Part shown: piece after piece, positions 19,500-46,303 of the stretch
How positions within the stretch are numbered: the first letter of the stretch is position 1
How the letters are laid out: the number at the start of each line of letters is the position of its first letter
From: Coprococcus phoceensis
Lineage (GTDB): Bacteria; Bacillota; Clostridia; Lachnospirales; Lachnospiraceae
NCBI RefSeq assembly: GCF_900104635.1
Contig: NZ_FNWC01000005.1
Location: 62,001 to 126,000 of the forward strand
Direction of reading: 5' to 3'
DNA length: 64,000 nucleotides
Program-made: the position numbers and the translations under genes
Notes under the pieces: model-generated
Told to the model about the DNA's origin: nothing
What the model saw: the letters and a program-made list of their open reading frames with translations, nothing else
Database searches by the model: none

Positions 19500-19625
19500 C
19501 CTTGTTTATTTCTAAACAAAGAACGGACAACCCGGAGGGGCAGGTTACTTACCCTATAAACATAGGACGGCTGGGCTACCTACCAGCTCTCGCATAATAA
19601 AATGCTTTGCGTTTTTATCTTTGTC
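19500..19625 (-). ncRNA. yjdF (azaaromatic-sensing) riboswitch candidate
   Basis: The minus-strand leader contains ACGCAAAGC, later GCGAGAGCTGG and GTAGGTAGCCCAGCCGTCC, then an ATAGGG/CCTGCCCCTCC segment before the AAGGAGG site. These blocks match the layout I recall for the yjdF RNA motif, and the downstream gene is yjdF. The loose pairing TAGAAATAAACAAGGAGG near the start codon suggests translational control. The family call depends on memory of the consensus; a covariance search would decide. Confidence 0.75.
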
Positions 19626-19701
19626 ATTTTAGATAATCGTTTTTGATTGATTATCTCTCTTAAAAATTATACCATTTCCATATCAGCACTACAATAAAAT
19701 T

Positions 19702-20069: not shown

Positions 20070-21266
20070 CTAACTTTCCACCAAATCTTTTGTAGGGGTC
20101 GTCTGCTGTTTGATTATCATTTCATGTTTTTCACTCAAGGTTGCCTGCTTTTCGATTGTTTCCATGTAGTCTGTACCGTTTCCCTTATCAATCTTTTTCA
20201 GCATTTTCAAGGTCGGTGCTACCTGCCGTTGTACCCAACGCAATGTGCGGTCTAAGGTATAAGGCTCTGGCTTTGTCGTCAGTTTCAGACTTTGCCGATT
20301 ATCGCCGATAAACCACGCCCAGCGGTCATTGAGTTTCCAGTCATTTTTTCGCTTGTCGGGTTGTTCATCAACAAACCGCACATACTGGTTGATGATAGAA
20401 AAGGCGGTCTGTTCTGCGTCATAATAGGTCAGCAAATCCCGTACTGCATAATAGGCACGTTCATTACGAAGCCGTATCTCAAAACGATTGATAATGTCGG
20501 CTTCCTCCAGCGGTGTCCCTAACTTAACGTACTGCTCATAGTCCTTTTCATAGATACAGAAATACACATCTGATTTCAGCGAACCAAGATAAAGGGTACG
20601 TCCCATATATTCTCTGTCGTCCTCTCTGTGCTTGATAAGCTCGCCCGACTGGTAAAACTTATAACTTCTGGACTTTCCGATATATTCCCGTTTCCTGCAT
20701 TTTTCCGCAAGCTCTGGAATATCCAAAATGCCCGTATGGTCGTTGATAGCAAGGTCGATACGCTTCATCACGCCACCGTCTACTAATGCGTCCATAAGGA
20801 AGTCATACCAGCTTCTTTGCTGTGCCAGCAGGTAACTTTCAAACTGCCTGCAACCACGCCCCTTTAACTCTAAAAGGACACCTTTTTCTTCGTCAGCCGA
20901 CGTATAGATAAAGATGTCCCCTAATGAATAATGCTCCGTATAACTGTAATGTCCGTAATCTTCATGGAGCATATAATTGATATTCAGTTTTAATATATCT
21001 TTGATGATATGCTGTATATCCAGCGTGGGAAAACGAATTTTCACATAATCAAACAGCATGGTAAGCGGTGCTTCTGGATTGAACCTTGCCAGTTCCTTAT
21101 GCAGAGTATTCATAAGTTCCTTTGACGGTTTCATTTTTCCGCTTTCTATCTTGTTGAGATATTCCCTTGTAATGCCAGAAGCCACCGCCAGCCTGCCTTG
21201 TGAGATACCGTAAGCAATCCGTTTCTCCCGTAATTCTTTTATCCCTTGTTCTTCATTCAGAACCAT
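20070..21266 (-). CDS. mobT: MobT-type relaxase (Rep_trans fold, Orf20-like) of the ICE
   Basis: 398 residues. An N-terminal XRE HTH (about 9-60) precedes a rolling-circle Rep_trans catalytic domain; the MKRIDLAINDHTG and YLGSLKSDVYFCIYEKDYEQ motifs are shared with the two other mobT genes of this window, and the nicking tyrosine should lie in these regions. MobT nicks oriT and starts single-strand transfer and rolling-circle replication of the ICE. An oriT-like hairpin region lies just upstream, as in Tn916. The start at ATG 21266 has GGGGG very close, so it may be adjusted by a few codons. Confidence 0.94.
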   Translation of the reverse strand: MVLNEEQGIKELREKRIAYGISQGRLAVASGITREYLNKIESGKMKPSKELMNTLHKELARFNPEAPLTMLFDYVKIRFPTLDIQHIIKDILKLNINYMLHEDYGHYSYTEHYSLGDIFIYTSADEEKGVLLELKGRGCRQFESYLLAQQRSWYDFLMDALVDGGVMKRIDLAINDHTGILDIPELAEKCRKREYIGKSRSYKFYQSGELIKHREDDREYMGRTLYLGSLKSDVYFCIYEKDYEQYVKLGTPLEEADIINRFEIRLRNERAYYAVRDLLTYYDAEQTAFSIINQYVRFVDEQPDKRKNDWKLNDRWAWFIGDNRQSLKLTTKPEPYTLDRTLRWVQRQVAPTLKMLKKIDKGNGTDYMETIEKQATLSEKHEMIIKQQTTPTKDLVES

Positions 21267-22057: not shown

Positions 22058-24725
22058 ATAGCGATAGGTAACTCTTTGATGTTATCTCCAAGTTTTCCCC
22101 CGCTTCACACCGTACATGAAACTTTCGCTTCATACGGCGTTCCATCATATTCAAATAGATTCATAAGTTCTGGTTATTTTATTGCTTGGTATCCATAGTT
22201 CGCTCGTATTTTGTTCAGCTTTTTCTTTTGTTGACTGCTCAAGCCATAGTTCATCAACCACATTTTCGCCTGTTGTACTGATTCAGTCAGTATCGCTTTT
22301 GATATTGGTATTTCAACAAATACAAGATTTTGGTATTTATCTCTATCTGTTTCGGTAATATTCTTGTAGATACAAACCATATCAGTCGGGCTATGCCTTC
22401 GATTAGTGATATAGCAATTGCCTTGTTGGGCTATAAATACCGAAATTCGATTATCATTAAATTCAACACTCTTTGTGGTGTCTTTATACTCTAAAAGAAT
22501 CCGTATCTCTCCTTTCGTTACCAATGCTATTTCCTCATGTATTTTGCTTCTTCCGTGTTCTGTAAAGTTGCATATATCCTGTGAGAAATTCAGCGGATTT
22601 TTGTGTTTTACTCCGTTGATTGGCAATAGAGGAGTATCGGCAATCATAATAATTTTTGTTTGTGGTCGTATTCCAGTTGTTTTCATCTGGAAATCTTGAC
22701 TTGTAGTTTCAAAAGGTATTAGCTTTGCAATCTTTTTAAAACGAACTCTGGTGGTCGGTAAGAGAGCGTAACTTACTTCTGTTAAATTGTTGTATATATT
22801 CGTAGCCACACAATAATAATTCTGCATTCCCATAACCGCCAGATTATAACGTGCAATCTGGAAAGTAGTTGTGTGCCTGACTATATCCTTGACTTTTAAC
22901 TTTAGATTTGTTTTTGCTTTCTTTAGTGCTTTTTGGTTCATATCTGTTTTGGCAACATATCCATGTTTTGTCTTCCCTTTTGGAATCACTTTAATTTTGA
23001 ATCCCAGAAAATCAGATGAATTTTTCTTCAGATTTACTACCTTTGATTTTTCTGGACTGATTTCTAATTTCAGCCTTTTGTTTAGAAAATCTACGGTACT
23101 GTGATAGAATCGCTGTGCTTCTTCATAGGTCGAACACATAATTTTAAAATCGTCAGCATAACGCACAATAAAGCCACTTTTTAACCTCGTATGTTTCTTT
23201 GCATATTGAAACCAACCGTTTTTATTACGGTGGTTTGGCTGGAAAGTTTCCCATTGACTGCTTACCCACCAATCCAATTCATTAAGGACTATGAGCGAGA
23301 GCAGGGGACTTAACAGACCGCCTTGCGGAGTTCCTTTTTCTGGAACACCCTCGCCGTCAATTTCAGCTTTCAGCATTTTACTAATAATGCAAATCAGTCT
23401 TTTATCTCGAATGCCAAGTGTCCAAATCTGTTTTAACAATTTCCCGTGGTTGACATTATCAAAGAATCCTTTAATATCTACATCAACGCAGTAATGATAC
23501 TTTGATATGTTTATCAAACTGGTTACTCTGCCAAGTGCATGGTGGGCACTTCGATTCGCACGGAATCCATAGGAATGATTATGGAACTTAGGTTCGCATA
23601 TCGGTTCTAGGACTTGTAAGATACATTGTTGTACAAGTCTGTCCCAGATACAGGGGATTCCGAGAGGTCGCCTTTTATCGCTTCCAGATTTAGGAATAAA
23701 AACCCGTCTGACTGATTTTGGTTGGTAATTATCCAGGCTGCTTCGGACTTTCATAATAATATCTTCATCACACAAATGTTTAATATCATCAATCGTTAGC
23801 CCATCTGTACCAGCGGTTTTGCTTCCGCTGTTTGTTTTTAAATTTCGGTATGCCAAGCAGATATTTTGTTCTGAACCAACAATTTCCAGTAACTTATAAA
23901 AGTTATTACCATTTTTGCTCTGTGCGTATAACTCATCATAAATATGTTGCATATCATAATATTCGTTATAGCGGAGCTTGTCTTTCTTTAGCATGGTCTG
24001 TACCCTCCTTAATTACAGGAGCAAGTACATCTCTTAGTCTTACTCGAACCCATACCATTCTTAGTAATTCTATTCTTCAATGACTAGTGGCTATCCCTCC
24101 ACCGTTTGTTATCACGGTTTCATAGGTACTGTGCCACTACTTTCACTGGCATAAACACACCTTATATTATTGCTAATCTCACAACAACCTTATGATGTGA
24201 ACACTTCATAGACAGTAAAATCTCCATGTTGCCAGCTTTCAACGTTCCAAACACACTATCTGTACATATATATCCGTAGGTTTCTTCTCTAAGCCTGCTA
24301 CTTTGATAATGCCTGTAACATTATATGGGTTTTCATAAAAACGAGTCTTACTCACCCACAGTAGCGACACTATTTGTGTCACTGGACATTTCTATCCAGT
24401 CCCGATATAGACCTGTACATTCAAAGATTCGTCAGTAGACCGCTCATCTACATACTAACCATAGATATTTTATAGACTTCCGGCATATAGGATACGACCC
24501 CCACCTCTGGGTATCTTTCGACAGCGCTATCTGTTACGGTATCTCTCTGCCGACTTCACCGAGCTTCTGACAGACCTATGTTTATTCATAATCCTGCCAG
24601 TCGGAGTATTAAAGTAGCCTTTCAGGGCGTTACCCCATCATTCGACTATTCGTGTGTTCAGTTCTCCAACACAATTTTAATTGATTGTGCAGTGTCTACT
24701 TTTTTCAAGTAGAAACGTCTCGCAC
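22058..24725 (-). mobile_element. Group II intron inserted in tcpA
   Basis: A 2668-base intron on the minus strand. The 5' end reads GTGCGAGACG, fitting the GUGYG consensus; the 3' end is ...CGCTAT (AY). Domain V is recognisable at about 22108-22139 (GCCGTATGAAGCGAAAGTTT, then CATGTACGGT). A 606-residue reverse transcriptase/maturase lies in domain IV. About 730 bases of structured noncoding RNA precede the ORF. The boundaries are fixed by exact restoration of the tcpA frame. Confidence 0.95.
22174..23994 (-). CDS. ltrA: Group II intron reverse transcriptase/maturase
   Basis: 606 residues. The RT domain carries the motifs GTPQGGLLSPLLS and the catalytic FIVRYADDFKIMC; the YADD aspartates are intact. 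A maturase (X) domain follows at about 370-450. The C-terminal part (about 520-606) resembles the H-N-H endonuclease position of chloroplast-like introns (CYITNRRHSPTDMVCIY), but I cannot see a complete set of HNH residues, so the endonuclease may be degenerate. The protein helps the RNA splice and mobilises the intron. Confidence 0.95.
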   Translation of the reverse strand: MLKKDKLRYNEYYDMQHIYDELYAQSKNGNNFYKLLEIVGSEQNICLAYRNLKTNSGSKTAGTDGLTIDDIKHLCDEDIIMKVRSSLDNYQPKSVRRVFIPKSGSDKRRPLGIPCIWDRLVQQCILQVLEPICEPKFHNHSYGFRANRSAHHALGRVTSLINISKYHYCVDVDIKGFFDNVNHGKLLKQIWTLGIRDKRLICIISKMLKAEIDGEGVPEKGTPQGGLLSPLLSLIVLNELDWWVSSQWETFQPNHRNKNGWFQYAKKHTRLKSGFIVRYADDFKIMCSTYEEAQRFYHSTVDFLNKRLKLEISPEKSKVVNLKKNSSDFLGFKIKVIPKGKTKHGYVAKTDMNQKALKKAKTNLKLKVKDIVRHTTTFQIARYNLAVMGMQNYYCVATNIYNNLTEVSYALLPTTRVRFKKIAKLIPFETTSQDFQMKTTGIRPQTKIIMIADTPLLPINGVKHKNPLNFSQDICNFTEHGRSKIHEEIALVTKGEIRILLEYKDTTKSVEFNDNRISVFIAQQGNCYITNRRHSPTDMVCIYKNITETDRDKYQNLVFVEIPISKAILTESVQQAKMWLMNYGLSSQQKKKLNKIRANYGYQAIK

Positions 24726-26476: not shown

Positions 26477-26860
26477 CTATTTTTTCGGTTGTCCCTGCGG
26501 TGTATGGTTCTGTGTATTGCCTGCGTTCTGGTTGCTTTTATTCTTCAATACAATATCCTCTGCCTTTACATACCAGTCCACATCTGCACCCGTATAGGTT
26601 TTTCTTGATACCGTATCGGCTACGGGATTGACAAGCTCCACAACTGCATTGTACGGAAATTCCCTTAACGGCACTTCTGGCGATACGGACACGGGGATAA
26701 TTCCACCATGCAGACTGCACTTCAAATCATAAATACGCTTTTTAAGCTGGGTACTCGGTGTCCCGTCCTCATTCTGCAAGAACACATCACGCACCGCTGT
26801 AAACTTTAATTCTCCAAATGTTTTCTCTCTGTCAATAACAAACCCGTTTGATAATCTCAT
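26477..26860 (-). CDS. DUF961/YdcP-family ICE protein (Orf22-like)
   Basis: 127 residues beginning MRLSNGFVIDREKTFGELKF, sharing the FG(E/T)L(K/E)F core with the next gene. DUF961 proteins (YdcO/YdcP of ICEBs1, Orf22/Orf23 of Tn916) are found at the start of the transfer operon upstream of the coupling ATPase; in ICEBs1 one works as a helicase-processivity factor for rolling-circle replication (HelP). The C-terminal N/Q-rich tail looks disordered. It is preceded by the second DUF961 gene, 15 bases away. Confidence 0.88.
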   Translation of the reverse strand: MRLSNGFVIDREKTFGELKFTAVRDVFLQNEDGTPSTQLKKRIYDLKCSLHGGIIPVSVSPEVPLREFPYNAVVELVNPVADTVSRKTYTGADVDWYVKAEDIVLKNKSNQNAGNTQNHTPQGQPKK

Positions 26861-26875
26861 AAATTCTTCACTCCT

Positions 26876-27202
26876 TTACTTTTCTTCAACTGCTACAATA
26901 TCATCAGCAACTAGCACATAATCGGTATGTCCCATATCCCCGATTGCGTAACCTCTGCCGTATAACTTCGGATTGACAAGTTTTACTTTCTGCTCATACT
27001 TGAAATGCTTTTCGCCAGCCTGCACGGGAATTTCTACCACAACATTTTCCCCTCTCTGCACATCTGAATAAAGGTTGTAGCTTCTTCTTGCGAAAAATCT
27101 GCGGTTATCTTTATCTCTGTCAAAAACATGGTCGCTTTCGCCTGCAAATTCAAGAGTTCCAAAAGACTGTGCCATATCTGGCACGACATATTTCATTTCC
27201 AT
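26876..27202 (-). CDS. DUF961/YdcP-family ICE protein (Orf23-like)
   Basis: 108 residues: MEMKYVVPDMAQSFGTLEFA, then a beta-rich middle (GENVVVEIPVQAGEKHFKYE) and LVNPKLYGRG, the family pattern. ACGAGG lies ahead of ATG 27202. It is the first gene of the transfer operon proper. A conserved stem-loop with a GCGTAAGCA loop lies about 90 bases upstream. Confidence 0.88.
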   Translation of the reverse strand: MEMKYVVPDMAQSFGTLEFAGESDHVFDRDKDNRRFFARRSYNLYSDVQRGENVVVEIPVQAGEKHFKYEQKVKLVNPKLYGRGYAIGDMGHTDYVLVADDIVAVEEK

Positions 27203-27292
27203 ATTGTTTTACCTCGTTTCTTTCTATTTTTGATAAGTTTGTTGATTGTGATTTCTTATTCTGGCGGTTTGGGAAGTACCAGCAAGCCCCCA

Positions 27293-27335
27293 GATAGTAA
27301 AGGGTAAAATAAATGCTTACGCACCCTTGACTATC
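27293..27335 (-). promoter_or_regulatory. Conserved GTCAAGGG/GCGTAAGCA stem-loop, ICE copy
   Basis: On the minus strand GATAGTCAAGGGT pairs with ACCCTTTACTATC (12 of 13 positions) around a loop starting GCGTAAGCA. The same hairpin, with compensatory changes, occurs twice in the 7-kb element at about 32200 and 33790. It may be a replication or regulatory signal upstream of the DUF961 genes. Confidence 0.6.
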
Positions 27336-27440
27336 CGTGTTCTTGCAGGTTGTTGGCAGACAAGCCAGAATAAGCGGAAGTCTGCCATTTGACAGCTTCG
27401 GCGGAGAACGTGATTTTTCTTTCCTCATACCGTTACCGCC

Positions 27441-30400
27441 TTATGATTTCTTCATTTTACGGCGTTTGTAAAGATATGTTCCAGCCAGTCCACCAGCAGA
27501 TGTAAGCAACATCACAAGAAACGCCATGACATTTGTGGTGTCGCCCGTTTTGGGACTGTCGTTCGGTCTGCTAGGCTTTTCTGGTGTCTGTGGTGTTTCG
27601 GGTTTCTCTGGTTCTTCTGGTTCTTCTGGCTTTTCCTTAAAGGTAATCGTCTGTCCCTCGTCCTCAATGTCCTTATGCTCCGTAACTTTCTTCGGCTCGT
27701 CTGGATTGCTGAAATCGTACAATTCTTCAAAAGTTACAAGCTGTTTGCCGTCAAAAGAAGTAGCGTCAAAGGTAAAGGCAACTTCCGCTTTCATAGTTTC
27801 GCTGTCAGCGGTAAAGGTGTAATCACTTTCCACACGTTTCCCATTGATAAGAAGTTCTGCATTTTCTTCTTTCAACATCTGCCAGCCTACAAGTTTGTAC
27901 TGTGTACCGACTTCCAAGCCCTCTAAGGTTACGGTATCAATGATTGTAACGTCTTTTCCAGCTTCAATCTCTTTGTTGCCGTCTTTGTCGGTAGCAGTCG
28001 TATGTATCTTGATGATACGTTCTGTAATCAATACAGTTTGTCCGTCGTCCTCAATGTCTTTGTGTTCCGCAACTTTCACGGGTTCGTCTGGATTGCTTAA
28101 ATCGTATAATTCCTCGAATGTTACCAGATTTTTACCGCCAAGCTCGGACGCATTGAATGTATAAGAAATTTCCACTTTCATTTCTTCATCATCAGCGATA
28201 AAAGTATAGTCATTTTCCACACGTTTTCCGTCAATGATAAGCTCTGCATTTTCTTCCTTTAACATCTGCCAGCCTTTGAGCTGATATTTTGTACCTTTTG
28301 TAAGCCCGTCTAATTTGACAGTATCGACGATTGTTACCTCTTTTCCTGCAAGGATAGTCTTTTCGCTGTCTTTGCTGGTCGCTGTGGTATGGATAGAGAT
28401 TTCTTTTTCGTATTCATCAGTCAAAGTCCCTAAATCAATCACAAGGTTATTTCTTGATACCACGATTTCAAAAGGTGGGATAAGTTCAAAGCCTTTGTTA
28501 CTATCGCAACGCATTTCTTCAATGATGTAAGTATCATAAGGCAATGCACCTTTGCTGTCGTCTGCTTCAGAAGTTCCAAACCACACACCGTCCTCGCTGG
28601 TCTTGCCTGCGTTAGTATTGTGCTTATGAGAAGTCCATTCAGCAGAAGTGGAGAATTGCCCGTTATCATCAGTAACTACAACATGACTTTCTCCCGTCGT
28701 CTTGCTTGTGATCCTAAAGGGAACATCAGCAAGACGCTTGTGTGTGCCTGCACCGATTTTCACTCCCTCAATATCCCCACGCTTAATCTGATTGTAGATA
28801 GAGTGGGCTTCGTCGGTTAAGTCCACGATTTTTCCATTCTCTGTGATTGCAAAGTCAATCGGTTTTGCACCGTCAGTTAAGTAACCGTCGGGAGCTTCAC
28901 TTTCAACGATACGGAATTTTCCATAAGGTAAAAGGTCAGCAGAAGTAGAAGCGACACCCTCAAGGTCTGTATGGATTGTTTTTACCACTTCATTTTTCTT
29001 GTAGAACTTGCCCTCAACCAATACCGCATTATCATTTAGGGAAATAATGTCAAAGGCAGTATCTTTCAAAGTGGCACTTCCTTGTGGTTTGGTATCGCCC
29101 GTTTCTAAATCTCGTTTCTGAATTTTCACACCGCCACGGATAACCTTGTCTGATACGGAAAACTGGTTACTTCCAGATAGTACGGCAAGGTCGCCGTCCT
29201 CGGTAATCTGTGTTACATATAAGCCCTTAATCTGTTCGGACTTATCGCCAGCCTGCATATATGCTCCCTCTAACAAGTAGCCGTTTGGAGCTTTTGTTTC
29301 TTCTACGGTTAGCGTCCCAAGTGGAAGAACCGCTTTGCTGTCCTGCATATAGAAGCTGTCGCCAGATACCTTGTATGCGTCCGCTAATTTTGTAATGTAG
29401 TGGGCTGTCCCGTCGCTGTCTGTTTCAGCGATTGTCTTTGTAACCCATGTACGAGTAGCTTCGGCAGGAAGATTGTCTTTATTATAGAAGCCAGCATAAT
29501 ACTTCCATGTAAATTCCGCGCCTGCTAGAGAAGCGTTCCCTTGCGGATTGTTTTTCTGTGTTTCCATGTCAATCTTGAAAAGTTCAATCAAAGTGTCCGT
29601 TACTTTTGGCGTATCAGATACTTTCAAAGTCGCTGTCTTTCCAGCTTCAACCTTTAAGGAATATACAGTTTTATCTACCTTATATCCTGCTGGTGCGGAT
29701 AATTCCTTGATATAGATTGTGCCTGCTTTTACCTCTACAACATCTGTATTTCCGTTTTTATCAGTCGTAAGGGTGGCAAGCTGTTTTGTGCAGTCCTTAT
29801 CAGCAAAGACACCGTATGTTGCACCAGCAATAGAGTAATTTTCGTTACCGTCTGTAATGCCGGTATTACTGGAAGTCTTTTGAAGTGTAGCATTTCCGAC
29901 ATTCAACTTCGCCCAGAATTGCCCTAATTCCTGCCCCTCGCCAGAGTAGATATAACCGCCACATTCATAGCGTCCTTTATTCTCTTTGACAAAGGCTTTC
30001 GCACCAGAGAAAACTTCGTCCTGCGTTGCCTTTGGAATTTCATCATAAGAAGCTCGCACGTTATCACATTGCCAGCCAAGATGTACGCTCAATCTCTGCC
30101 AGACAACAAGCTGTCTTAAAAGGTAGGCGTGATTGTTGCTTATTCCGCTGTGGCTGTCTGTGTACTGTTTTACATATTCGATAGATAAGGCAACGTCGCT
30201 TATCTGGTCGGCACTCATACGGGTGCTTACGTCAGCTCTGGTTTTGTAGCCGTTTCTAAAATCTGTGTTAATGTCGATACAGTAAGCGTCCTCGCCCTCA
30301 ACGGTCAAATGCCCCTCGTTAAAAGTAGAACCAATCGAACCGTCATTCATTACTTTTTCAACGATACCGACACGCTCCTTTGACTCCGTCCAGTATTGCT

Positions 30401-30494
30401 TGCTTTCTGCATGGACGGGTGTCGTCGGTAAAGCAGTAACGACAGTTGCAAGAGCTAAGAAGCCCGTACACAATCGTTTTAACATCTTTTTCAT
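27441..30494 (-). CDS. VaFE/Cna-B repeat surface adhesin with thioester domain and sortase signal
   Basis: 1017 residues from ATG 30494 (AAAGGAGC nine bases upstream). Order of parts: signal peptide (1-30, cleavage near VHA-ES); a thioester-type head with Cys72 in AYCID and a matching VWQRL glutamine; several Cna-B/SpaA-like isopeptide domains; two VaFE repeats (both with KYQLKGWQML- and LVTFEELYD-type motifs, about residues 700-935); a P/E-rich stalk; the sorting signal SPKTGD, a membrane helix and a KRRKMKKS tail. SPKTG is a class B-like sortase motif seen in Clostridia. It is a wall-anchored adhesin of the ICE, perhaps aiding mating contact or host binding. Confidence 0.92.
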   Translation of the reverse strand: MKKMLKRLCTGFLALATVVTALPTTPVHAESKQYWTESKERVGIVEKVMNDGSIGSTFNEGHLTVEGEDAYCIDINTDFRNGYKTRADVSTRMSADQISDVALSIEYVKQYTDSHSGISNNHAYLLRQLVVWQRLSVHLGWQCDNVRASYDEIPKATQDEVFSGAKAFVKENKGRYECGGYIYSGEGQELGQFWAKLNVGNATLQKTSSNTGITDGNENYSIAGATYGVFADKDCTKQLATLTTDKNGNTDVVEVKAGTIYIKELSAPAGYKVDKTVYSLKVEAGKTATLKVSDTPKVTDTLIELFKIDMETQKNNPQGNASLAGAEFTWKYYAGFYNKDNLPAEATRTWVTKTIAETDSDGTAHYITKLADAYKVSGDSFYMQDSKAVLPLGTLTVEETKAPNGYLLEGAYMQAGDKSEQIKGLYVTQITEDGDLAVLSGSNQFSVSDKVIRGGVKIQKRDLETGDTKPQGSATLKDTAFDIISLNDNAVLVEGKFYKKNEVVKTIHTDLEGVASTSADLLPYGKFRIVESEAPDGYLTDGAKPIDFAITENGKIVDLTDEAHSIYNQIKRGDIEGVKIGAGTHKRLADVPFRITSKTTGESHVVVTDDNGQFSTSAEWTSHKHNTNAGKTSEDGVWFGTSEADDSKGALPYDTYIIEEMRCDSNKGFELIPPFEIVVSRNNLVIDLGTLTDEYEKEISIHTTATSKDSEKTILAGKEVTIVDTVKLDGLTKGTKYQLKGWQMLKEENAELIIDGKRVENDYTFIADDEEMKVEISYTFNASELGGKNLVTFEELYDLSNPDEPVKVAEHKDIEDDGQTVLITERIIKIHTTATDKDGNKEIEAGKDVTIIDTVTLEGLEVGTQYKLVGWQMLKEENAELLINGKRVESDYTFTADSETMKAEVAFTFDATSFDGKQLVTFEELYDFSNPDEPKKVTEHKDIEDEGQTITFKEKPEEPEEPEKPETPQTPEKPSRPNDSPKTGDTTNVMAFLVMLLTSAGGLAGTYLYKRRKMKKS

Positions 30495-30529
30495 AAATCT
30501 AATGCTCCTTTCATTTTGGGTAATAAAAT

Positions 30530-30583
30530 AGCCGTCCAATAAGAACGGCTGAAAATAGAAAAGGAACGTCATTTTAGGCGTTC
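30530..30583 (-). terminator. Two tandem hairpins in the leader of the adhesin gene
   Basis: Minus-strand GGAACG/CGTTCC (30562-30583) is followed by TTTTCTATTTT, and then AGCCGT/ACGGCT (30530-30550) by ATTTTATT. Both lie within 90 bases of the adhesin start, so they may attenuate it or stop transcripts entering the ICE. Confidence 0.5.
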
Positions 30584-30664
30584 CATAGTCTATAAAATAT
30601 TCAATTTTTTTCTTGTTTCAATACTGATGTGCTGTACCATATCTTTGCATATCTAGGAAAACTG

Positions 30665-30780
30665 GCGTATCAAGGCTCATTCAATGGTAGTAAATAAGTA
30701 GTAAATTGATGTATTTGTTCCCTTGAAAATGCTGATAGATACTGTGTTTTAGCGGATAATCAGATTTTTATTGTGTTTTT
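30665..30780. other. Right terminal arm of the ICE (integrase arm-site candidates)
   Basis: No gene. The segment has GGTAGTAAAT-AAGTAGTAAATTG, two direct TAGTAAAT repeats like the arm-type sites bound by the N-terminal domain of Tn916-family integrases, and CGTATCAAGG nearby. A diverged inverted copy of the whole approximately 115-base segment lies at 33545-33662. Backbone genes end just left of here and gene remnants begin just right, so the ICE end is probably close. Confidence 0.5.
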
Positions 30781-30794
30781 ATATGGAAACATAT

Positions 30795-31013
30795 CTATTT
30801 TTTGGTCTGATTGGAGAAAAAGTGGATGGCCGGAAAATTGCGGTAGGGTTTAGGCTGTGGATTAGATGTTAGCTTTTCCGGATTTGGTTCATTGTAAATC
30901 AGTCGATACAGCGGATGTTTGATAGTTTTTTCCTTGCCACTGGTACCGGTGTATTGATATACATGGACTGGCAGACCAGCAATAGATTCAGAAAGAATCC
31001 CATAGGTCATCAC
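30795..31013 (-). pseudogene. Phage portal protein remnant
   Basis: The frame reads YGILSESIAGLPVHVYQYTG, then KHPLYRLIYNEPNPE, the pattern of HK97-type portal proteins (ILAESVAGLPLHVY ... HPLYxLLxxEPNPE). Only about 50 of roughly 400 residues remain; after EPNPE the sequence is unrelated, and nothing precedes it. It is a fragment of a former prophage, cut on both sides. Confidence 0.65.
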
Positions 31014-31077
31014 TTCCTTTTAAAAATGGGTATAAGAAAAGCACCTCTGAAGAGATGCTTTCTTAAAAATTTCTTTT

Positions 31078-31545
31078 TTATTCTGAAATCAACCAATCAA
31101 TCAAGTTGATGGGTTTAATACCATCATAGGAAGAATCCATTCCGGTATTTAAGGATAGAATTATTTTTTCGTAGTTATCGCTGATTTTCTGGAGTGGTGG
31201 TAATTCTCGCTTGCGAACATCTTTGCTGGTCATGGTCTCTGTGACCTGAACATAAAGTTTGTCATCTACTTTTGTTGCGATAAAATCCACTTCGGAATTA
31301 TCCACTTTACCAATAGAGACATCATAGCCTCTACGTAGCAGTTCAAAGTAAACAACATTTTCTATTGCATGTCCGCTATCACGATCCCTGAATCCAAGCA
31401 GATAGTTTCTAAGTCCGATATCAACAATATAATACTTTCCAAGAGTACGTAAGAATTCCTTTCCTTTAATATTAAATCTCTTGATGTCATAGAAGAAGTA
31501 TGCTTCCAGTAGCGCATTCACATAGGCCTGAACAGTGTGAGCGCT
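31078..31545 (-). pseudogene. DUF4143-type AAA ATPase, C-terminal fragment
   Basis: About 155 residues (PSAHTVQAYVNALLEAYFFY ... NLIDWLISE) match the C-terminal DUF4143 nuclease-like region of archaeal-type AAA ATPases, including VDFIATKVDDKLYVQV. The Walker A ATPase half is absent: the frame is closed by TGA near 31548, and upstream lies a different fragment (RETKSALGGTRRQAFDKTGE) in another context. It is truncated and very likely non-functional. Confidence 0.75.
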
Positions 31546-31892
31546 TGGAGTTCATAGTGTTCGCCGGTTTTATCAAATGCTTGCCTGCGTGTGCCACCTA
31601 ACGCACTTTTGGTTTCTCTTATTTCAAAATCATGGAATGTTATAATCTTATTCAAGTTTATGCACTGAAATGCAGAAACTATTAAAATTTGACAATTTTT
31701 GCATTTTACAAGAAGAGAATGCCTCTATCATCGTAGACAGAAGCACCGGTATTATTTCCACAGCGGATAGCACGGTCGAGCTTATGATGGGGAGATTATT
31801 TGATGAATTATGTGCTAATATTCTGCAATTCTACTGCTGGTCGATTGATTTATGCACACTCTCATTATAATATGTGTGCAGGAGGTGGATAT
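31546..31892. other. Gene-poor remnant region
   Basis: No complete gene is visible. The minus strand keeps a short coding-like piece (SALGGTRRQAFDKTGEHYEL, about 31550-31610), and the plus strand keeps IISTADSTVELMMGRLFDEL (about 31751-31815), both without starts or continuation. They look like debris from earlier insertions. The end contains an AGGAGG site for the XRE gene. Confidence 0.45.
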
Positions 31893-32029
31893 ATGTATCA
31901 GATTAGTAATGAAAAATTTGGTTTATTTGTAACCGAATTAAGAAAGGAAAAGAATTTAACTCAAAAGGATTTGGCTGAAAAATTATATGTATCAGATAAA
32001 ACAGTTAGCAAATGGGAACGTGGAGTTTC
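31893..32029 (+). pseudogene. XRE-type membrane regulator, 5' part (split by the 7-kb element)
   Basis: From ATG 31893 (GCAGGAGG upstream) the frame gives an XRE HTH: MYQISNEKFGLFVTELRKEK, then DLAEKLYVSDKTVSKWERGV. At codon 46 it enters foreign DNA (SQTKGY, stop). The missing remainder begins at 39077; joining base 32029 to 39077 gives KWERGV-SVPDSDMLISIS with no base missing. The intact gene would code 176 residues. Confidence 0.85.
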
Positions 32030-32162
32030 CCAAACAAAAGGATATTAAGAAATAACCTGTGTTTTCCTGCTTGCGAATAAAAGAATAGTGTGATTAAGTT
32101 AGAAATACTGCATAAATGTGCTGGTATCTCTTTTTCGTTGCCTTGAAACAGCAGACTATTTC

Positions 32163-32285
32163 ATTTCTGCTTGATTACTCTAAACTTATCAGGCTGTGGT
32201 TTGTCAAGGGCTTGTTGCGTAAGCAATGCTTTGGCACCCTTTACAAATTATGGACGGTAAAGTAGCTTTTCAAAAGCAGAAAAAA
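32163..32285 (+). ncRNA. Structured leader, copy 1 (GTCAAGGG/GCGTAAGCA hairpin)
   Basis: Outer stem TTTCTGCTT/AAGCAGAAA encloses an inner stem TTGTCAAGGG/CCCTTTACAA around CTTGTTGCGTAAGCAATGC. Copy 2 at 33749-33870 has the same design with a compensatory G-C to A-T change. A TTGTAG-N17-TATAAT promoter follows at about 32309-32337. It could be an RNA leader, a small RNA or a single-strand replication origin. Confidence 0.55.
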
Positions 32286-32399
32286 GTAGTCTTAAGATTT
32301 TGAAATATTGTAGCGGGTAGTGGAAAATGGTATAATGTGAATACAGAGAAACATATAAATTTGTATTTAACAATCAATAAATTGAGAGGGCTTAATCTT

Positions 32400-33134
32400 A
32401 TGACTAAACAAAAGAAGGTAATTTGGATAATATTGGGAATAATTATTTTTGTGTTTAGTGTTTTTCTAGGGCTTGGATATTTAGGTCAAATAACAGGTGG
32501 AAATAGTTTAATACAAAGAACAGAAATGAACGATAAATATGTTCCGGAAGAAATAACAAAATATTATCCAATAGAAGATTTAAACTCAAAAGAAAGTTTA
32601 CTTTCTGATAAAAATTATGCAAACTCAATACAGGATGCTCTGTTAAGTGCCTCTATTGAGTTTGAACAAGGCGAAGAATATAAAACACATATTGATAAGA
32701 TTATAAAGGAGTTTGAAAACGAAAACTATAAAAGTGTTTTGTATATATCAGAAAAAAACGATATAGAGTCAAGTTTGACATTTTCAAAATTCAAAATTAA
32801 GGAAGTAGATGGTAAAAAGAGATATGCTCATATTACAAGTGTACATGAGGTTATAAAGAAAGACCGCCCGTATGACAAAGATACGATGTCGTTACTAAAA
32901 TCACAGTTAGCATTAAGTGATAGATTGCAAGACTTAAATATCAGTCCAGACAATAGTCGCTTTTTATATGGATTTGTACATGATGAAGATATTTACAATA
33001 CAAAAATAGAAAATAAAAAACCCGATGAAATTATTTATTTTGAACTTTGTGAAAAGCCTTTCTATTTTTGGTATTATGAAAATTTTCAAAGTGATAAATC
33101 TGGAAAATCTTTAAGTATAGAAATTGAAAGATAA
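32400..33134 (+). CDS. Membrane-anchored protein of unknown function
   Basis: 244 residues from ATG 32400. One N-terminal membrane helix (about 7-27) is followed by an extracytoplasmic, charged domain of about 215 residues (EEITKYYPIEDLNSKESLLS ... FELCEKPFYFWYYENFQSDK). No lipobox cysteine is seen. It is AT-rich compared with mobT and the recombinase downstream. I do not recognise the family. It stands behind a structured leader and its own promoter as first gene of a cargo group in the mobilizable element. Confidence 0.7.
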   Translation: MTKQKKVIWIILGIIIFVFSVFLGLGYLGQITGGNSLIQRTEMNDKYVPEEITKYYPIEDLNSKESLLSDKNYANSIQDALLSASIEFEQGEEYKTHIDKIIKEFENENYKSVLYISEKNDIESSLTFSKFKIKEVDGKKRYAHITSVHEVIKKDRPYDKDTMSLLKSQLALSDRLQDLNISPDNSRFLYGFVHDEDIYNTKIENKKPDEIIYFELCEKPFYFWYYENFQSDKSGKSLSIEIER

Positions 33135-33169
33135 TAATAGAACAATTCCAGGTTGTAGAGGTGATTAGA

Positions 33170-33478
33170 ATGAAGAAACTATATTGCATGAACTGTGGTA
33201 CTGAAATAAAAGGAGGAATACCTAACGAATGTTCTTGTGGAGCTGAATTTGATTTAGCAGATACAAAAAACATAAAAAGAATAATTACAAGCATTATATT
33301 CTTTGTAATATTAATGTCTCCACTGCTTATTCTTATTCACTTTGGCAGACAATATTTACAAGCGTCAATTATTTTATATGCTTTGCTCCTGATTCTAGGT
33401 ATTTTTTGGTGTCGTATCGTACAAACTATTTTAGTTCGTCTTGGGTTAGTAACTATGACGAACATTGAAATTAAATAA
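33170..33478 (+). CDS. Zinc-ribbon small membrane protein
   Basis: 102 residues from ATG 33170, eight bases after GAGGTG. Two CxxC/CxC pairs in the first 25 residues (YCMNCGTE, ECSCGAEF) form a zinc ribbon, followed by two membrane helices (about 38-60 and 65-90). It lies 35 bases after the anchored protein and ends at a terminator. Function unknown. Confidence 0.75.
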   Translation: MKKLYCMNCGTEIKGGIPNECSCGAEFDLADTKNIKRIITSIIFFVILMSPLLILIHFGRQYLQASIILYALLLILGIFWCRIVQTILVRLGLVTMTNIEIK

Positions 33479-33505
33479 CAACAATAACATCTTCACAACT
33501 CTACT

Positions 33506-33540
33506 GAGCAGGAAATCTGAAAAGGTCTCCTGCTTTTTTA
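33506..33540 (+). terminator. Intrinsic terminator
   Basis: AGCAGGA pairs with TCCTGCT and is followed by TTTTTT; it closes the two-gene unit. Confidence 0.85.
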
Positions 33541-33544
33541 TACC

Positions 33545-33662
33545 AAAAAGATTAAAAATCCTATTATCCGCATAAACGCAGGAACTTTAAGCAATATGAA
33601 TGAAAATACAAAAGAAATTTACCACTAATTTACTACGATTGAAAGAACCTTGATACGACAAA
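33545..33662. repeat. Inverted, diverged copy of the ICE terminal arm
   Basis: AAAAATC..ATTATCCGC..AAAC.CA, then TTTAC.AC..ATTTACTAC.ATTGAA and CCTTGATACG.CA match the reverse complement of 30665-30780 in order and spacing. No gene is present. Confidence 0.7.
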
Positions 33663-33748
33663 GAAAATAGCATAAAGAAAAGCAAAATGGCATTTCATAC
33701 AAAATATGAGATGTTTTTTTGTTGCTGTAACACAGCACAATTTGTTCT

Positions 33749-33870
33749 TTTTTCTGCTTGACTATCTTTCATTTTTTAGAGCATGAATTGTCAAGAGCTT
33801 GTTGCGTAAGCAATGCTTGCACTCTTGATAAGGCATGGGATAAAAAATATTTTGACAGATAGCAGAAAAG
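33749..33870 (+). ncRNA. Structured leader, copy 2 (GTCAAGAG/GCGTAAGCA hairpin)
   Basis: Outer stem TTTTCTGCT/AGCAGAAAA and inner stem TTGTCAAGAG/CTCTTGATAA enclose the same CTTGTTGCGTAAGCAATGC loop as copy 1. TGACAT-N17-TATAAT follows at about 33874-33902, before the next gene pair. Confidence 0.55.
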
Positions 33871-33965
33871 TAATGACATGTGAGTTCTATAAATGATATA
33901 ATAAATTATCAGATAAAAAATCAATCGGTTAACAATTTGCAAAGAAATTTCTAGGAGAAAAGAGT

Positions 33966-35261: not shown

Positions 35262-36428
35262 ATGAATGATATAAAATTTATTGAAACATTAAAGCAAAAG
35301 AGAAATGCCTGTGATTACTCGCAATCACGACTGGCACAGGAACTACAAATCAGCAGGCAGAACTTAAATGAAATTGAAAACGGAAAAACAAAAGCCAGTA
35401 AAGAAATGAAACATATACTTTTGCATTATCTTGATTATTGTAATTGTACTCAGCCTTTCACTTTAACGATTGACTACCTGCGTGTTCGTTTTCCCACCAC
35501 AGACGCATTGGAAATTATAAAAAATGTACTGGCAATGAAGAGCGAATATTTTATCCATGAAGATTACGGAATGTATGGCTATGAAGAACAGTATGTCTAT
35601 GGGGATATTAGTGTAAATGCTTCTAAAGATAGTTCTATGGGTGTTTTATTGGAATTAAGAGGTATGGGGTGTCGGAACTTGGAATATGTTTTACAGGCAA
35701 GAGGGATAGACTGGTATTACTTTTTAAGATGTTGTATAGATTATCAAGGTGTTTTTAAACGCATAGATTTAGCGGTCAATGATATGGGCGGACTGCTGGA
35801 TATAGAAATTCTAAGGGAACGCTATTATGCCAACAAGGTATGGAAACGTTCAAGAACCCATGAAGCAGTAGACAGCGGGAAATTATCGGGTACACATGGA
35901 GATACTGCAAAAACCTTTTATATCGGTTCAAAGAATAGTTCCATCTACTTTTGCCTGTATGAAAAAGAAAAGGAACAAAAAAGCAAAGGTATAAAAACAA
36001 ACATTAAGAACCGCTTTGAAATTCGTTTAAAAAATGGAAAAGCAGAACAAACGATAGAACAACTTGTTTTTACAAGAAATCCCGAACAGACCATAGCAAG
36101 CCTTATCCTCACACAGATAGATTTTCCCGATTATATTTTATGGGATATATTTTTAGATAATGTAACGACCTCACTTCCGTTTATTATGACGCCTGTTGCT
36201 GTCAATATGGAGAAAACAAAACGCTGGTTAGAAAGACAGGTCATGCCCTCTTTATTGATGATAAAAGAGATTGAAAAGAAAACAGGAGCAAATTATCTGG
36301 AAGAAATCGACAGACATACAAGACTAACAGAAAAGCAGGAATTAAAAATTAAACAAATGACAACAGACATAGCAGATATGATTGAGAAAGATACCGCTGT
36401 TCCACAAGGGAATGACGGTATTTTTTAA
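35262..36428 (+). CDS. mobT: MobT-type relaxase (Rep_trans fold) of the 7-kb element
   Basis: 388 residues behind TTGGAGG. N-terminal XRE HTH (QKRNACDYSQSRLAQELQIS-like region, about 9-62; the seen form starts LKQKRNACDYSQSRL) and a Rep_trans domain with FKRIDLAVNDMGG, FYIGSKNSSIYFCLYEKEKE and IKNRFEIRLKNG, each aligned with the ICE mobT but clearly diverged. It nicks the adjacent oriT so that the element can use the conjugation channel of a resident ICE. The same architecture occurs in the ICE copy; the pyrE element's mobT lacks the HTH. Confidence 0.93.
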   Translation: MNDIKFIETLKQKRNACDYSQSRLAQELQISRQNLNEIENGKTKASKEMKHILLHYLDYCNCTQPFTLTIDYLRVRFPTTDALEIIKNVLAMKSEYFIHEDYGMYGYEEQYVYGDISVNASKDSSMGVLLELRGMGCRNLEYVLQARGIDWYYFLRCCIDYQGVFKRIDLAVNDMGGLLDIEILRERYYANKVWKRSRTHEAVDSGKLSGTHGDTAKTFYIGSKNSSIYFCLYEKEKEQKSKGIKTNIKNRFEIRLKNGKAEQTIEQLVFTRNPEQTIASLILTQIDFPDYILWDIFLDNVTTSLPFIMTPVAVNMEKTKRWLERQVMPSLLMIKEIEKKTGANYLEEIDRHTRLTEKQELKIKQMTTDIADMIEKDTAVPQGNDGIF

Positions 36429-36815: not shown

Positions 36816-37081
36816 TTTCATGTTCTTTGACAACTGAATAAAGCAGTTCAATACGTTTGACAGACAGCGAGCCGTTGAAACAGATACGCCATGACCTTTC
36901 CCCTGCAAAAGCGAGCGACAACTTATTTGTGTTCCTGTAAAAGATTTGTTCTCTTTTATCGCCATGACCTGTCCTGTCTGATAATGATACTCCCGTACAG
37001 CCACAGCTTGAGCGTTCAGAGCGTCGCACGCAATGGGTACGGCTACATAAGAACTATGCAGAGGTGGAACTCCTGTGGGCT

Positions 37082-37420: not shown

Positions 37421-39034
37421 ATGAAACAACAGATTTACAATACTGCACTTTATCTTAGGTTAAGCCGAGATGATGAATTACAGGGCGAAAGTTCCAGCAT
37501 TACCACACAAAGAAGTATGTTGCGTCTATATGCAAAAGAACATCATTTGAATGTGATTGATGAATATATTGATGACGGCTGGTCGGGAACAAATTTTGAA
37601 AGACCGAGTTTCCAGAGAATGATTGAAGATATAGAGGCAGGAAAAATCAACTGTGTTGTAACGAAAGACCTTTCCCGACTTGGCAGAAATTATATTATGA
37701 CAGGACAATATACAGAATTGTATTTTCCCAGCCATAATGTCCGTTACATAGCGATTGACGACGGTGTAGACAGCGAAAAAGGCGAAAGTGAGATTGCACC
37801 ATTTAAGAATATCATCAATGAATGGGTGGCAAGAGATACAAGCCGTAAAGTGAAATCTGCATTTAAGACAAAATTTGCAGAGGGTGCGTATTATGGGGCT
37901 TATGCTCCGTTAGGATATAAGAAACACCCCGACATCAAAGGAAAACTGCTGGTTGATGAGGAAACAAAATGGATTGTTGAAAAAATCTTCTCCCTAGCCT
38001 ATCAAGGTTACGGTAGTGCCAAAATCACAAAGGTACTGCGAGAAGAAAAAGTTCCGACAGCGTCTTGGCTGAATTTCACAAGGTACGGTACTTTTGCACA
38101 CATCTTTGAGGGAAAGCCCGAAAGCAAGCGTTATGAGTGGACGATTGCTCATGTCAAGGCAATCTTAAAAAGTGAAGTCTATATCGGAAACAGCGTTCAT
38201 AATCGACAATCAACAGTTTCATTCAAGAGCAAGAAAAAAGTGCGTAAGCCCGAAAGTGAATGGTTTCGAGTAGAAAATACCCATGAACCGATTATTGACA
38301 AGGAAGTGTTCTATCGTGTGCAGGAACAGATAAAATCAAGGCGTAGACAGACAAAGGAAAAAGCAACGCCGATATTTGCAGGGCTTGTCAAGTGTGCGGA
38401 TTGTGGCTGGTCTATGCGGTTTGCGACAAATAGGGCAAATAAAACGCCATACAGTTATTATGCTTGCAGTTACTACGGGCAGTTTGGCAAAGGTACTTGT
38501 TCTATGCACTATATCCGTTATGATGTGTTGTATCAAGCCGTATTGGAACGATTGCAGTATTGGGCTAAGGCAGTACAGCAGGACGAAGAAAAGGTGTTGA
38601 ATAAGATACAAAAGGCTGGCAATGCAGAGCGAATACGGGAAAAGAAGAAAAAGGCAAGTGCCTTGAAGAAAGCCGAGAACCGACAAAATGAGATTGACCG
38701 CTTGTTTGCGAAAATGTACGAAGATAGAGCCTGTGAGAAGATAACGGAACGAAACTTCATCATGCTGTCGGGGAAATATCAGAAAGAACAGATAGAACTG
38801 GAACAGCAGATAACCAACCTAAGAGAAGAATTAAGTAAAATGGAACAGGATATGATAGGTGCTGAAAGGTGGATTGAGTTAATCAAGGAGTATTCCGTAC
38901 CAAAGGAACTGACAGCACCGTTATTAAATGCAATGATAGAAAAAATCCTTATTCACGAAGCAACAACGAATGAGGAGAACGAAAGAATACAGGAAATAGA
39001 GATATATTACCGATTTATTGGAAAAGTAGACTGA
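37421..39034 (+). CDS. Large serine recombinase (TndX/TnpX type)
   Basis: 537 residues behind AAGGAGG. The N-terminal resolvase domain has the nucleophilic serine in LYLRLSRDDELQGES, plus DDGWSGTNFERP and VVTKDLSRLGRNY. A recombinase domain follows, then a zinc ribbon (CADCGWSMRF ... YYACSYYGQ, GTC) and a coiled coil (about 400-490, K/E-rich). It excises and inserts the 7-kb element by strand exchange at a GA/TC dinucleotide. It lies at the right end, about 40 bases from the junction with the split XRE gene. Confidence 0.96.
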   Translation: MKQQIYNTALYLRLSRDDELQGESSSITTQRSMLRLYAKEHHLNVIDEYIDDGWSGTNFERPSFQRMIEDIEAGKINCVVTKDLSRLGRNYIMTGQYTELYFPSHNVRYIAIDDGVDSEKGESEIAPFKNIINEWVARDTSRKVKSAFKTKFAEGAYYGAYAPLGYKKHPDIKGKLLVDEETKWIVEKIFSLAYQGYGSAKITKVLREEKVPTASWLNFTRYGTFAHIFEGKPESKRYEWTIAHVKAILKSEVYIGNSVHNRQSTVSFKSKKKVRKPESEWFRVENTHEPIIDKEVFYRVQEQIKSRRRQTKEKATPIFAGLVKCADCGWSMRFATNRANKTPYSYYACSYYGQFGKGTCSMHYIRYDVLYQAVLERLQYWAKAVQQDEEKVLNKIQKAGNAERIREKKKKASALKKAENRQNEIDRLFAKMYEDRACEKITERNFIMLSGKYQKEQIELEQQITNLREELSKMEQDMIGAERWIELIKEYSVPKELTAPLLNAMIEKILIHEATTNEENERIQEIEIYYRFIGKVD

Positions 39035-44624: not shown

Positions 44625-44954
44625 ATGCAGATTACATTGACAAAAGAACAGGTAAAAGAAGCATTTGGAGAACTTCGTTTCATGGGTGCGGATAACTGTT
44701 ACCGCTATGATAAAGACAGTAAGAAGAAAACAGAGGAAGTGGAAGCCTTAAAACTTCATCTTGGAAGCATGAAGCTTGGGAACAGCGTGGATATTCGCTT
44801 GGAAGCAACGGAACTTCCGAAGATTGAGCCTTATGCGGTGGTGGAACTGGAAGAACCAGTATATGCCCCTTATGTGCAGAGAGGAAACTTTCCTGTATTA
44901 GTGGAGAAGATTACCTGTAAGGGTATCCGCCCTGTTGCAAACAAAAATATGTAG
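44625..44954 (+). CDS. DUF961/YdcP-family protein of the pyrE element
   Basis: 109 residues: MQITLTKEQVKEAFGELRFM, with the FGELRF core and VVELEEPVYAPYVQRGN near the end, in line with the two ICE DUF961 proteins. AGAAAGGA lies upstream of the ATG. It precedes mobT and may support rolling-circle replication of the excised element. Confidence 0.85.
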   Translation: MQITLTKEQVKEAFGELRFMGADNCYRYDKDSKKKTEEVEALKLHLGSMKLGNSVDIRLEATELPKIEPYAVVELEEPVYAPYVQRGNFPVLVEKITCKGIRPVANKNM

Positions 44955-45048
44955 GCGGTCAAAGTTCCTGTCCTCGTTCTGACGTACCAAACGGCAGGTT
45001 GAGGGCAGGGCAATGGCAACGCCATTGCAGATAGGAGGTATGGTAAAT

Positions 45049-46122: not shown

Positions 46123-46126
46123 TCGT

Positions 46127-46303
46127 ATCGAGAAAGCATTATTAAACGTAAAGGAACTTTCAGAATATCTAGGGATTGGTGATACGAAAGCAAGGGAGCT
46201 TTTACATAATCCATATAATAATTTTACGGTTAGGATTGGAAATCGTCTGTATGCTCACAAAGCAAGATTAGATAAATGGCTGAATAATCAAGTTGTAGAG
46301 TAA
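46127..46303 (+). CDS. xis: Excisionase (Xis), 58 residues, with non-standard start
   Basis: The frame IEKALLNVKELSEYLGIGDT continues to VRIGNRLYAHKARLDKWLNN, the winged-helix excisionase pattern of Tn916-like Int/Xis pairs (related proteins start MEK). AAGGGGG lies exactly seven bases upstream of codon ATC at 46127, where ATG is expected; no ATG, GTG or TTG is available. Either ATC is used at low efficiency or one base has mutated. It starts four bases after the mobT stop codon. It binds the element ends and directs Int to excision. Confidence 0.75.
   Translation: MEKALLNVKELSEYLGIGDTKARELLHNPYNNFTVRIGNRLYAHKARLDKWLNNQVVE

Follow-up and report, generated by a model that had tools for sequence, protein, structure and literature searches.

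Three copies of a conserved hairpin occur in a 64,000-nucleotide stretch of the Coprococcus phoceensis genome (contig NZ_FNWC01000005.1, positions 62,001 to 126,000; hereafter the window), one preceding the DUF961 genes of an integrative and conjugative element (ICE) and two preceding gene pairs of a 7-kb element that encodes a MobT-type relaxase. Judged from its predicted fold, and with moderate confidence, the hairpin is probably a promoter that works on single-stranded DNA in the manner of Frpo and of single-strand origins (sso), priming second-strand synthesis. The displaced or transferred strand, once single, would fold back on itself and pair its 3' arm, as non-template, with its 5' arm, as template, so that the -35 box and the spacer are double-stranded and a bubble lies already open around the -10 box and the start. 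The housekeeping RNA polymerase would then bind the fold, start within the bubble and copy a short RNA from the 5' arm and 5' flank, and extension of this RNA by DNA polymerase would convert the single-stranded DNA of an ICE, integrative and mobilizable element (IME), plasmid or phage to the double-stranded form, as an sso does. The conserved structure, the promoter boxes with their spacing, the bubble and the strand relation were computed here; binding of RNA polymerase, primer synthesis and the role in replication are proposed by analogy with Frpo and sso biology. The original prediction, made from the letters of the window, had offered a single-strand origin, a regulatory RNA leader or a site bound by a shared protein. 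Of these, the single-strand origin is now the best supported, in part, and a promoter with a pre-opened -10 box has been added to it.

The sequence GCGTAAGCA was found three times in the window, at 27314-27322 on the minus strand and at 32217-32225 and 33804-33812 on the plus strand; the three hairpins are real and placed as predicted. Shuffled sequence held a mean of 0.31 copies and reached three in 2 of 100 shuffles, and the longer pattern GTCAAGRG-N2-8-GCGTAAGCA gave two matches in the window against none in 100 shuffles. GCGTAAGCA caps a mini-hairpin with the letters TGC-GTAA-GCA, which extend to TTGC-GTAA-GCAA in the copies of the 7-kb element, and the strand order at the core is GTCAAGGG, mini-hairpin, a T-rich or variable spacer, and then CCCTTTAC or CTCTTGA. 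The loop had been described as constant, which holds among the three window copies and fails among their relatives, where loops include GTTA, GTA and GAA. Tops of the C-GNA-G and C-GNNA-G types are unusually stable DNA mini-hairpins.

All three cores lie within outer stems, the sequences of which differ between the ICE and the 7-kb element. The ICE copy as a whole spans 27255..27374 (minus strand), with the core hairpin GTCAAGGG-TGC-GTAA-GCA-...-CCCTTTAC at 27289..27339 (61.6 bits with covariance model R1, described below) enclosed by CTTATTCTGGC (27364-27374) paired with GCCAGAATAAG (27255-27265), a stem that had not been listed earlier. On the plus strand, the first copy of the MobT element spans 32164..32282 (core 32195..32252, 58.2 bits) and the second 33751..33868 (core 33782..33837 with arms GTCAAGAG/CTCTTGA, 54.7 bits); their outer stem, TTTCTGCT/AGCAGAAA, was present as predicted at 32164-32171 with 32275-32282 and at 33751-33758 with 33861-33868, respectively. 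The paired stem change from AAGGG/CCCTT to AAGAG/CTCTT was likewise as described. No listed terminator site fell at the three hairpins, and an intrinsic terminator (GC stem and T run) was rejected as a candidate. Rfam held no family at the three places, either at the gathering score or at E-values up to 5.

Scanning named genomes with a pattern limited to the core yielded 48 stretches, which were sorted by eye into 29 ICE or MobT forms, nine that differ outside the core and ten that resemble chance. Thirteen hand-chosen sequences, none of them from the ten chance-like stretches, made up alignment A2, from which R1 was built. In A2, 91.4% of cells were paired compared to 77.7% when shuffled and 31-46% when slid, and both sides had changed in 8 of 18 pairs, including all seven outer pairs. 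Independent of hand choice, 18 distinct sequences selected by their core letters alone were paired at eight flanking pairs in 89.6% of cases, compared to 60.5% with shuffled partners and a maximum of 78.5% in 2000 such shuffles. Outer arms that vary in sequence yet remain paired point to a selected structure, as had been proposed; the wider comparison did not leave the copies without covariation, and the three in the window are not simple duplicates of each other.

Searches with R1 found members beyond the window copies, with matches in 60 of 391 genomes of the class (E <= 0.001) and 16 of 398 genomes of the phylum (E <= 1e-5). Within the same C. phoceensis genome there are eight close copies, and a further, less similar copy lies on its 5.6-kb contig. 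For the analysis of loci, R1 matched 95 places in 90 sources, of which 82 were carried on after 11 near-copy-like matches and two weak ones (L136) had been left out; seven viral loci picked by eye brought the total to 89, and these were reduced to 65 representatives by shared 8-mers. A loop-and-spacer rule that ignores the -10 box led to four of the 65 being re-oriented. A strict recount without these four and the seven hand-picked rows comprised 54 representatives, weak matches being kept. Pattern scans of viral sequence returned mostly palindromes that look like chance, and named phage records held no match to two window-type hairpins or to the region of locus L209, considered below. None of three core-letter strings was found in the papers searched, nor did any title or abstract opening among the matches listed describe such a hairpin family.

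TTGAC or TTTAC closes the core on its 3' arm, and a TA dinucleotide follows at promoter spacing: at spacers of 16, 17 and 18 nucleotides in 10, 29 and 15, respectively, of the 64 representatives that could be read. In the strict set, TA stands 16-18 nucleotides after the -35 box of the 3' arm in 42 of 54 cases, whereas the mirrored 5' arm shows it in 11; TAnnnT was counted 6, 12 and 11 times at the three spacers against 0, 5 and 0 on the mirrored arm. When rows were aligned by their TA (50 of 65), the third base was T in 29 of 50 and the sixth in 30 of 50, with TTGACA as the -35 consensus; four representatives have a perfect TATAAT, and L090 reads TTGACA-17-TATAAT. The window copies each have a spacer of 17, with TTTACT (27296..27301, the 3' arm of the core stem) and TACTTC (27273..27278) in the ICE copy, TTTACA (32240..32245) and TAGCTT (32263..32268) in the first copy of the MobT element, and TTGATA (33825..33830) and TATTTT (33848..33853) in the second. 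Among 1373 promoter-like sites in the 64 kb, scored for a paired -35 box, a paired spacer and an open -10 box, these three rank 2, 18 and 3, respectively.

Folding of members as single-stranded DNA with DNA parameters covered the 62 of 65 representatives with sufficient flank, re-oriented and hand-picked rows included. Mean pairing was 0.80-0.99 across the -35 box and 0.68-0.92 across the spacer, fell to 0.35-0.44 at positions 24-32 after the start of the -35 box (-11 to -3 for a 17-nucleotide spacer), was 0.49-0.52 at -2 and -1, and rose again to 0.67-0.77 at positions 36-44. The predicted fold suggests an opened promoter, with the -35 box and spacer paired, the -10 box mostly unpaired and the DNA downstream paired again. 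Compared with folds in which the flanks had been shuffled, pairing of the outer duplex with the 5' side was 0.52 against 0.16, that of the inner spacer helix 0.73 against 0.31, and that of the bubble 0.42 against 0.52. An outer duplex above 0.5 was predicted in 34 of 62 real and 19 of 186 shuffled folds, and such a duplex jointly with an open bubble in 27 of 62 and 6 of 186. This helix-gap-helix pattern implies that duplex and open DNA are kept where RNA polymerase needs them, with the caveat that the predicted outer duplex exceeds 0.5 in just those 34 members; similarly, the window copies and the family average, though not every member, have a duplex -35 box with a promoter-spaced -10 box in the folded strand. 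On the template side opposite the bubble, in the 5' flank, the motif CTTRAYT was found in 19 of 65 representatives compared to 4 and 1 of 65 in controls (shuffle mean 1.9). By eye, an upstream hairpin beside CTTAATT seems to replace the outer duplex in a subgroup (L089, L095, L107, L108, L113, L115 and others).

The same boxes would be equally readable in duplex DNA, and the hairpin could be an ordinary double-stranded promoter within a palindrome, transcribing towards the DUF961 genes or the gene pairs; the hairpin itself would then be regulatory or sensitive to supercoiling. In keeping with this, a plain scan lists the boxes of the third copy, TTGATA-17-TATTTT, with 9 of 12 matches, and the four perfect TATAAT representatives and L090 also count in its favour. 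However, a duplex promoter has no need of covarying arms and leaves unexplained both the outer duplex around a pre-opened bubble and the mismatch bias described below; as duplex sequence the boxes of the ICE copy are weak, and those of the third copy are surpassed by a promoter-like site (11 of 12 matches) at 33873-33902, downstream of them. This explanation is considered unlikely.

Among the outer pairs of 17 distinct pattern-found sequences, 14 mismatches were G-T or T-G and four A-C or C-A (one-sided p 0.015, assuming independent sites), and this excess makes the strand named here the likely folding one. The hairpin strand was the coding strand of MobT and DUF961 in 42 of 42 hairpins, from 40 sources in which both were detected, a count that represents few independent lineages and some overlapping sources. 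It was also that of Rep in two loci with a G2P-type Rep, L209 and L036. On the 5' side of the ICE hairpin, RNA copied from the folded strand would run antisense to the gene there, and priming is therefore likelier than early gene expression.

Strong RNA-like covariation, a GTAA loop that is also a GNRA RNA tetraloop and the sense-strand position upstream of DUF961 in ICEs would each suit a structured RNA, either a leader or a processive antiterminator that affects how the conjugation operon is transcribed, and a Tn916 antiterminator that is most likely an RNA, canT, does exist (PMC11658703). Yet the hairpins are antisense to the neighbouring gene in the MobL elements and in IS256 cases, the third copy is separated from its genes by a promoter-like site, relatives carry loops outside the GNRA class such as GTTA and GTA, Rfam gave no family at the three places, canonically spaced promoter boxes have no role in an RNA, and canT is located elsewhere, between orf8 and xis. 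Because of the antisense cases, the promoter boxes and the loops, an RNA role is regarded as highly improbable, and the leader first envisaged is disfavoured by the downstream site at 33873-33902 and the antisense MobL and IS256 copies. Antitermination of the canT type was an early idea, dropped when the antisense and insertion sequence (IS) contexts appeared.

The carriers of the hairpin are diverse, and appear from their genes to include Tn916-like ICEs, MobT and MobL elements, an inovirus-like prophage, mobilizable plasmids, several IS types and a miniature inverted-repeat transposable element (MITE). Tn916-type ICEs with DUF961, FtsK and MobT carry it, including the divergent L064 and L091, as do MobT elements, one of them upstream of dfrF in Enterococcus faecium, and elements with MobA/MobL relaxases. 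At L209 the hairpin (43.8 bits) lies on the strand of Rep and of most larger open reading frames (ORFs); the ATPase of this locus is Zot-like by eye, its only Pfam match being AAA_14 at 25.3 bits, under the cut-off of 27, and the locus is probably an inovirus prophage. Loci with a serine recombinase are L114, which also has a G2P-type Rep, L164 and L171. The 5.6-kb contig of the same genome (contig C4, locus L224, 5611 bp) is a mobilizable plasmid with a MobC/NikA-like protein and a relaxase, and the 361 bp compared around its hairpin match a Waltera intestinalis plasmid without a difference. In pCD-METRO of Clostridioides difficile (L236), the hairpin occupies 4037-4091 and begins 35 bp after repA; a word search of the main text of the paper on this replicon returned no mention of a single strand, an inverted repeat or a stem-loop. 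The inovirus-like prophage, the MobT elements and the mobilizable plasmids, pCD-METRO included, all have single-stranded DNA phases. No gene common to the carriers was found, and the shared binding site suggested earlier is for this reason unlikely to serve an element-encoded protein; a host protein, RNA polymerase, fits better.

Hairpins also adjoin transposases of IS3, IS256, IS110, IS6/IS240-like and IS30-like type. One genome (G441) has 15 matches, 13 of them with equal score, one copy (L096) adjoining an IS3-type transposase; another (G326) has 13, and its copy L092 adjoins an ORF that is the same as the IS6/IS240-like transposase of L090 over the first 70 residues listed. In a Selenomonas metagenome-assembled genome (L060, 2714-2971), a transporter gene contains what looks like a MITE (about 240 bp) with the hairpin in its middle; the terminal repeats are imperfect and the target duplication is of 9 bp (all by eye). 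In total, 26 of the 65 representatives stand beside a mobile-element gene or within an identified mobile element (L126 weakly so), the remaining 39 being unclassified. Genomes with many copies, copies beside transposases and the L060 MITE with its target duplications are what would be expected of a mobile palindrome similar to repetitive extragenic palindromes or MITEs, or of a binding site that transposition has dispersed, neither acting as a promoter. A mobile palindrome should, however, have conserved outer ends, whereas here the outer arms vary and the core is conserved; the carriers are unrelated, the place upstream of DUF961 in ICEs is fixed, and the promoter signals lie mainly on one arm. 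This reading is considered very unlikely.

A broader form of the single-strand promoter reading is that the hairpin is a portable start for single-strand copying, driven by the host polymerase and shared by conjugative elements, mobilizable plasmids, an inovirus and IS elements; copy-out IS would then release a single-stranded circle that needs a second strand and bring their own origin. This is put forward tentatively and is doubtful as a whole. The IS figure-eight is described as being converted to a double-stranded circle by replication (PMC7780238), and any benefit of an sso to IS elements is speculation. The IS copies pose a new question about transposition.

Several observations weigh against a single-strand promoter. 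E-values of R1 are rough, and some weak family members are probably chance matches. In the strict set, TA is absent at 16-18 in 12 of 54 representatives, occurs in 7-19 of them when the three-base window is placed elsewhere on the 3' arm, and reaches 16 on the mirrored arm at a spacer of 24; for the 12 kept representatives found without R1, the TA signal was 9 against 4. The ICE boxes, TTTACT and TACTTC, are weak as a promoter, and plain promoter scans of window regions gave about as many sites as shuffles (23 against 20.3 and 11 against 10.2). With respect to strand, members of the MobL group (L097, L102, L103 and L163) have hairpin and relaxase gene on opposite strands, and L114 likewise its hairpin and G2P-type Rep; a similar protein of L164 (by eye), and the serine recombinase that was all that was seen at L171, are again opposite the hairpin, and the L114 group is hard to reconcile with an sso. 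A further MobT-type relaxase locus in the window, at about 44625-46300 (plus strand), has no hairpin of this family in the R1 search of the window. Relatives of the L209 inovirus (L215-L218) have no convincing hairpin, R1 reaching 16.4 bits at best; five loci were retrieved by Rep, the query's own included, and one by Zot, which was the query's own. The many copies beside IS transposases are unexplained, as these have no obvious need for an sso, and IS6-type elements, given their mechanism, fit a single-stranded circle poorly. Lastly, with filters off, R1 matched none of pUB110 and pC194 (whole records), pTA1060 (8000 of 8737 bases) and M13 (1008 bases), the best score being 15.0 bits in pUB110 and lower in the others, with the positions of the sso within these records not located.

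The genes around the window copies are those of two mobile elements. On the minus strand, two DUF961 genes (26477..27202) lie directly downstream of the ICE hairpin, and the MobT-type relaxase of the ICE (Rep_trans, 20070..21266) is on the same strand. The 7-kb element has its MobT-type relaxase (Rol_Rep_N and Rep_trans) at 35262..36428 on the plus strand, that of its two hairpins, and a serine recombinase at 37421..39034 (plus strand); between them, at 36981-37078 (plus strand), is an Rfam match to the pemK RNA family. The left end of this element may lie at about 32028, where GTTTCCCAAACAAA begins a stretch that is common to the dfrF-bearing E. faecium element (L031, about 7948), the preceding sequences differing (by eye). 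The relaxase locus at about 44625-46300 has matches from 45040 and follows a DUF961-looking ORF with no Pfam match. On the minus strand of the ICE, a group II intron (22058-24666, Rfam matches at 24469-24666 and 22058-22142) appears to split the FtsK-type coupling gene, and its ORF of 606 amino acids looks by eye like an intron reverse transcriptase. An azaaromatic (yjdF) riboswitch was matched at 19507-19628 (minus strand, Rfam, 74.9 bits).

Among known systems, the M13/f1 complementary-strand origin is a hairpin on the virion strand that is primed by RNA polymerase. The arms of an M13 intergenic hairpin, GTCAAGC...GCTTTAC, have the same C-T mismatch as GTCAAGGG...CCCTTTAC, although the rest of the sequence differs and the likeness may be chance. 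The canT element of Tn916, with active fragments of about 340-450 bp, most likely acts as RNA and lies between orf8 and xis (PMC11658703). It is an orientation-specific cis element of a Tn916-type ICE, as the present hairpin would be, and differs in location, the window hairpins preceding DUF961 or gene pairs. The sso of rolling-circle plasmids and of ICEBs1 and Tn916 (sso1 and sso916) are orientation-specific folds that prime the second strand, and many of those on Gram-positive plasmids use the host RNA polymerase (PMC4595007). The hairpin resembles them as a folded region in elements with related relaxases; sso916, however, is located between orf19 and ardA (PMC9632896), whereas the window-type hairpin precedes DUF961. 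A scan for bubble promoters found scattered moderate scores and no clear counterpart in pTA1060, pC194, pUB110 and M13; for the 63 family members long enough, the median best score was 0.39, with 39 of 63 above 0.3. On the R1 comparison above, the family would not be filed under any of the named sso classes (the pC194, pUB110 and pTA1060 types).

Detailed knowledge of how transferred ICE DNA acquires its second strand exists for very few elements, and a 2015 study stated that virtually nothing was known of this for any ICE (PMC4595007). If the single-strand promoter reading is true, a widely shared priming hairpin would make this step testable in many elements of gut Firmicutes, including carriers of resistance genes, and would provide sequence rules, a paired -35 box and an open -10 box, for single-strand promoters outside the enterobacteria. 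Among the closest parallels is Frpo (ssi) of the F plasmid and its relatives, where a folded single strand of conjugative DNA mimics a duplex promoter with -35 and -10 boxes; the study of this system found no significant Frpo sequence similarity in its Streptococcus pneumoniae island (PMC11541004). The hairpin family resembles Frpo as a folded strand with -35 and -10 boxes on conjugative DNA, a likeness of fold and box layout, and differs in its Firmicutes carriers, IS neighbourhoods and an inovirus-like prophage included. As far as can be judged from computation, it would work as Frpo and sso sites do.

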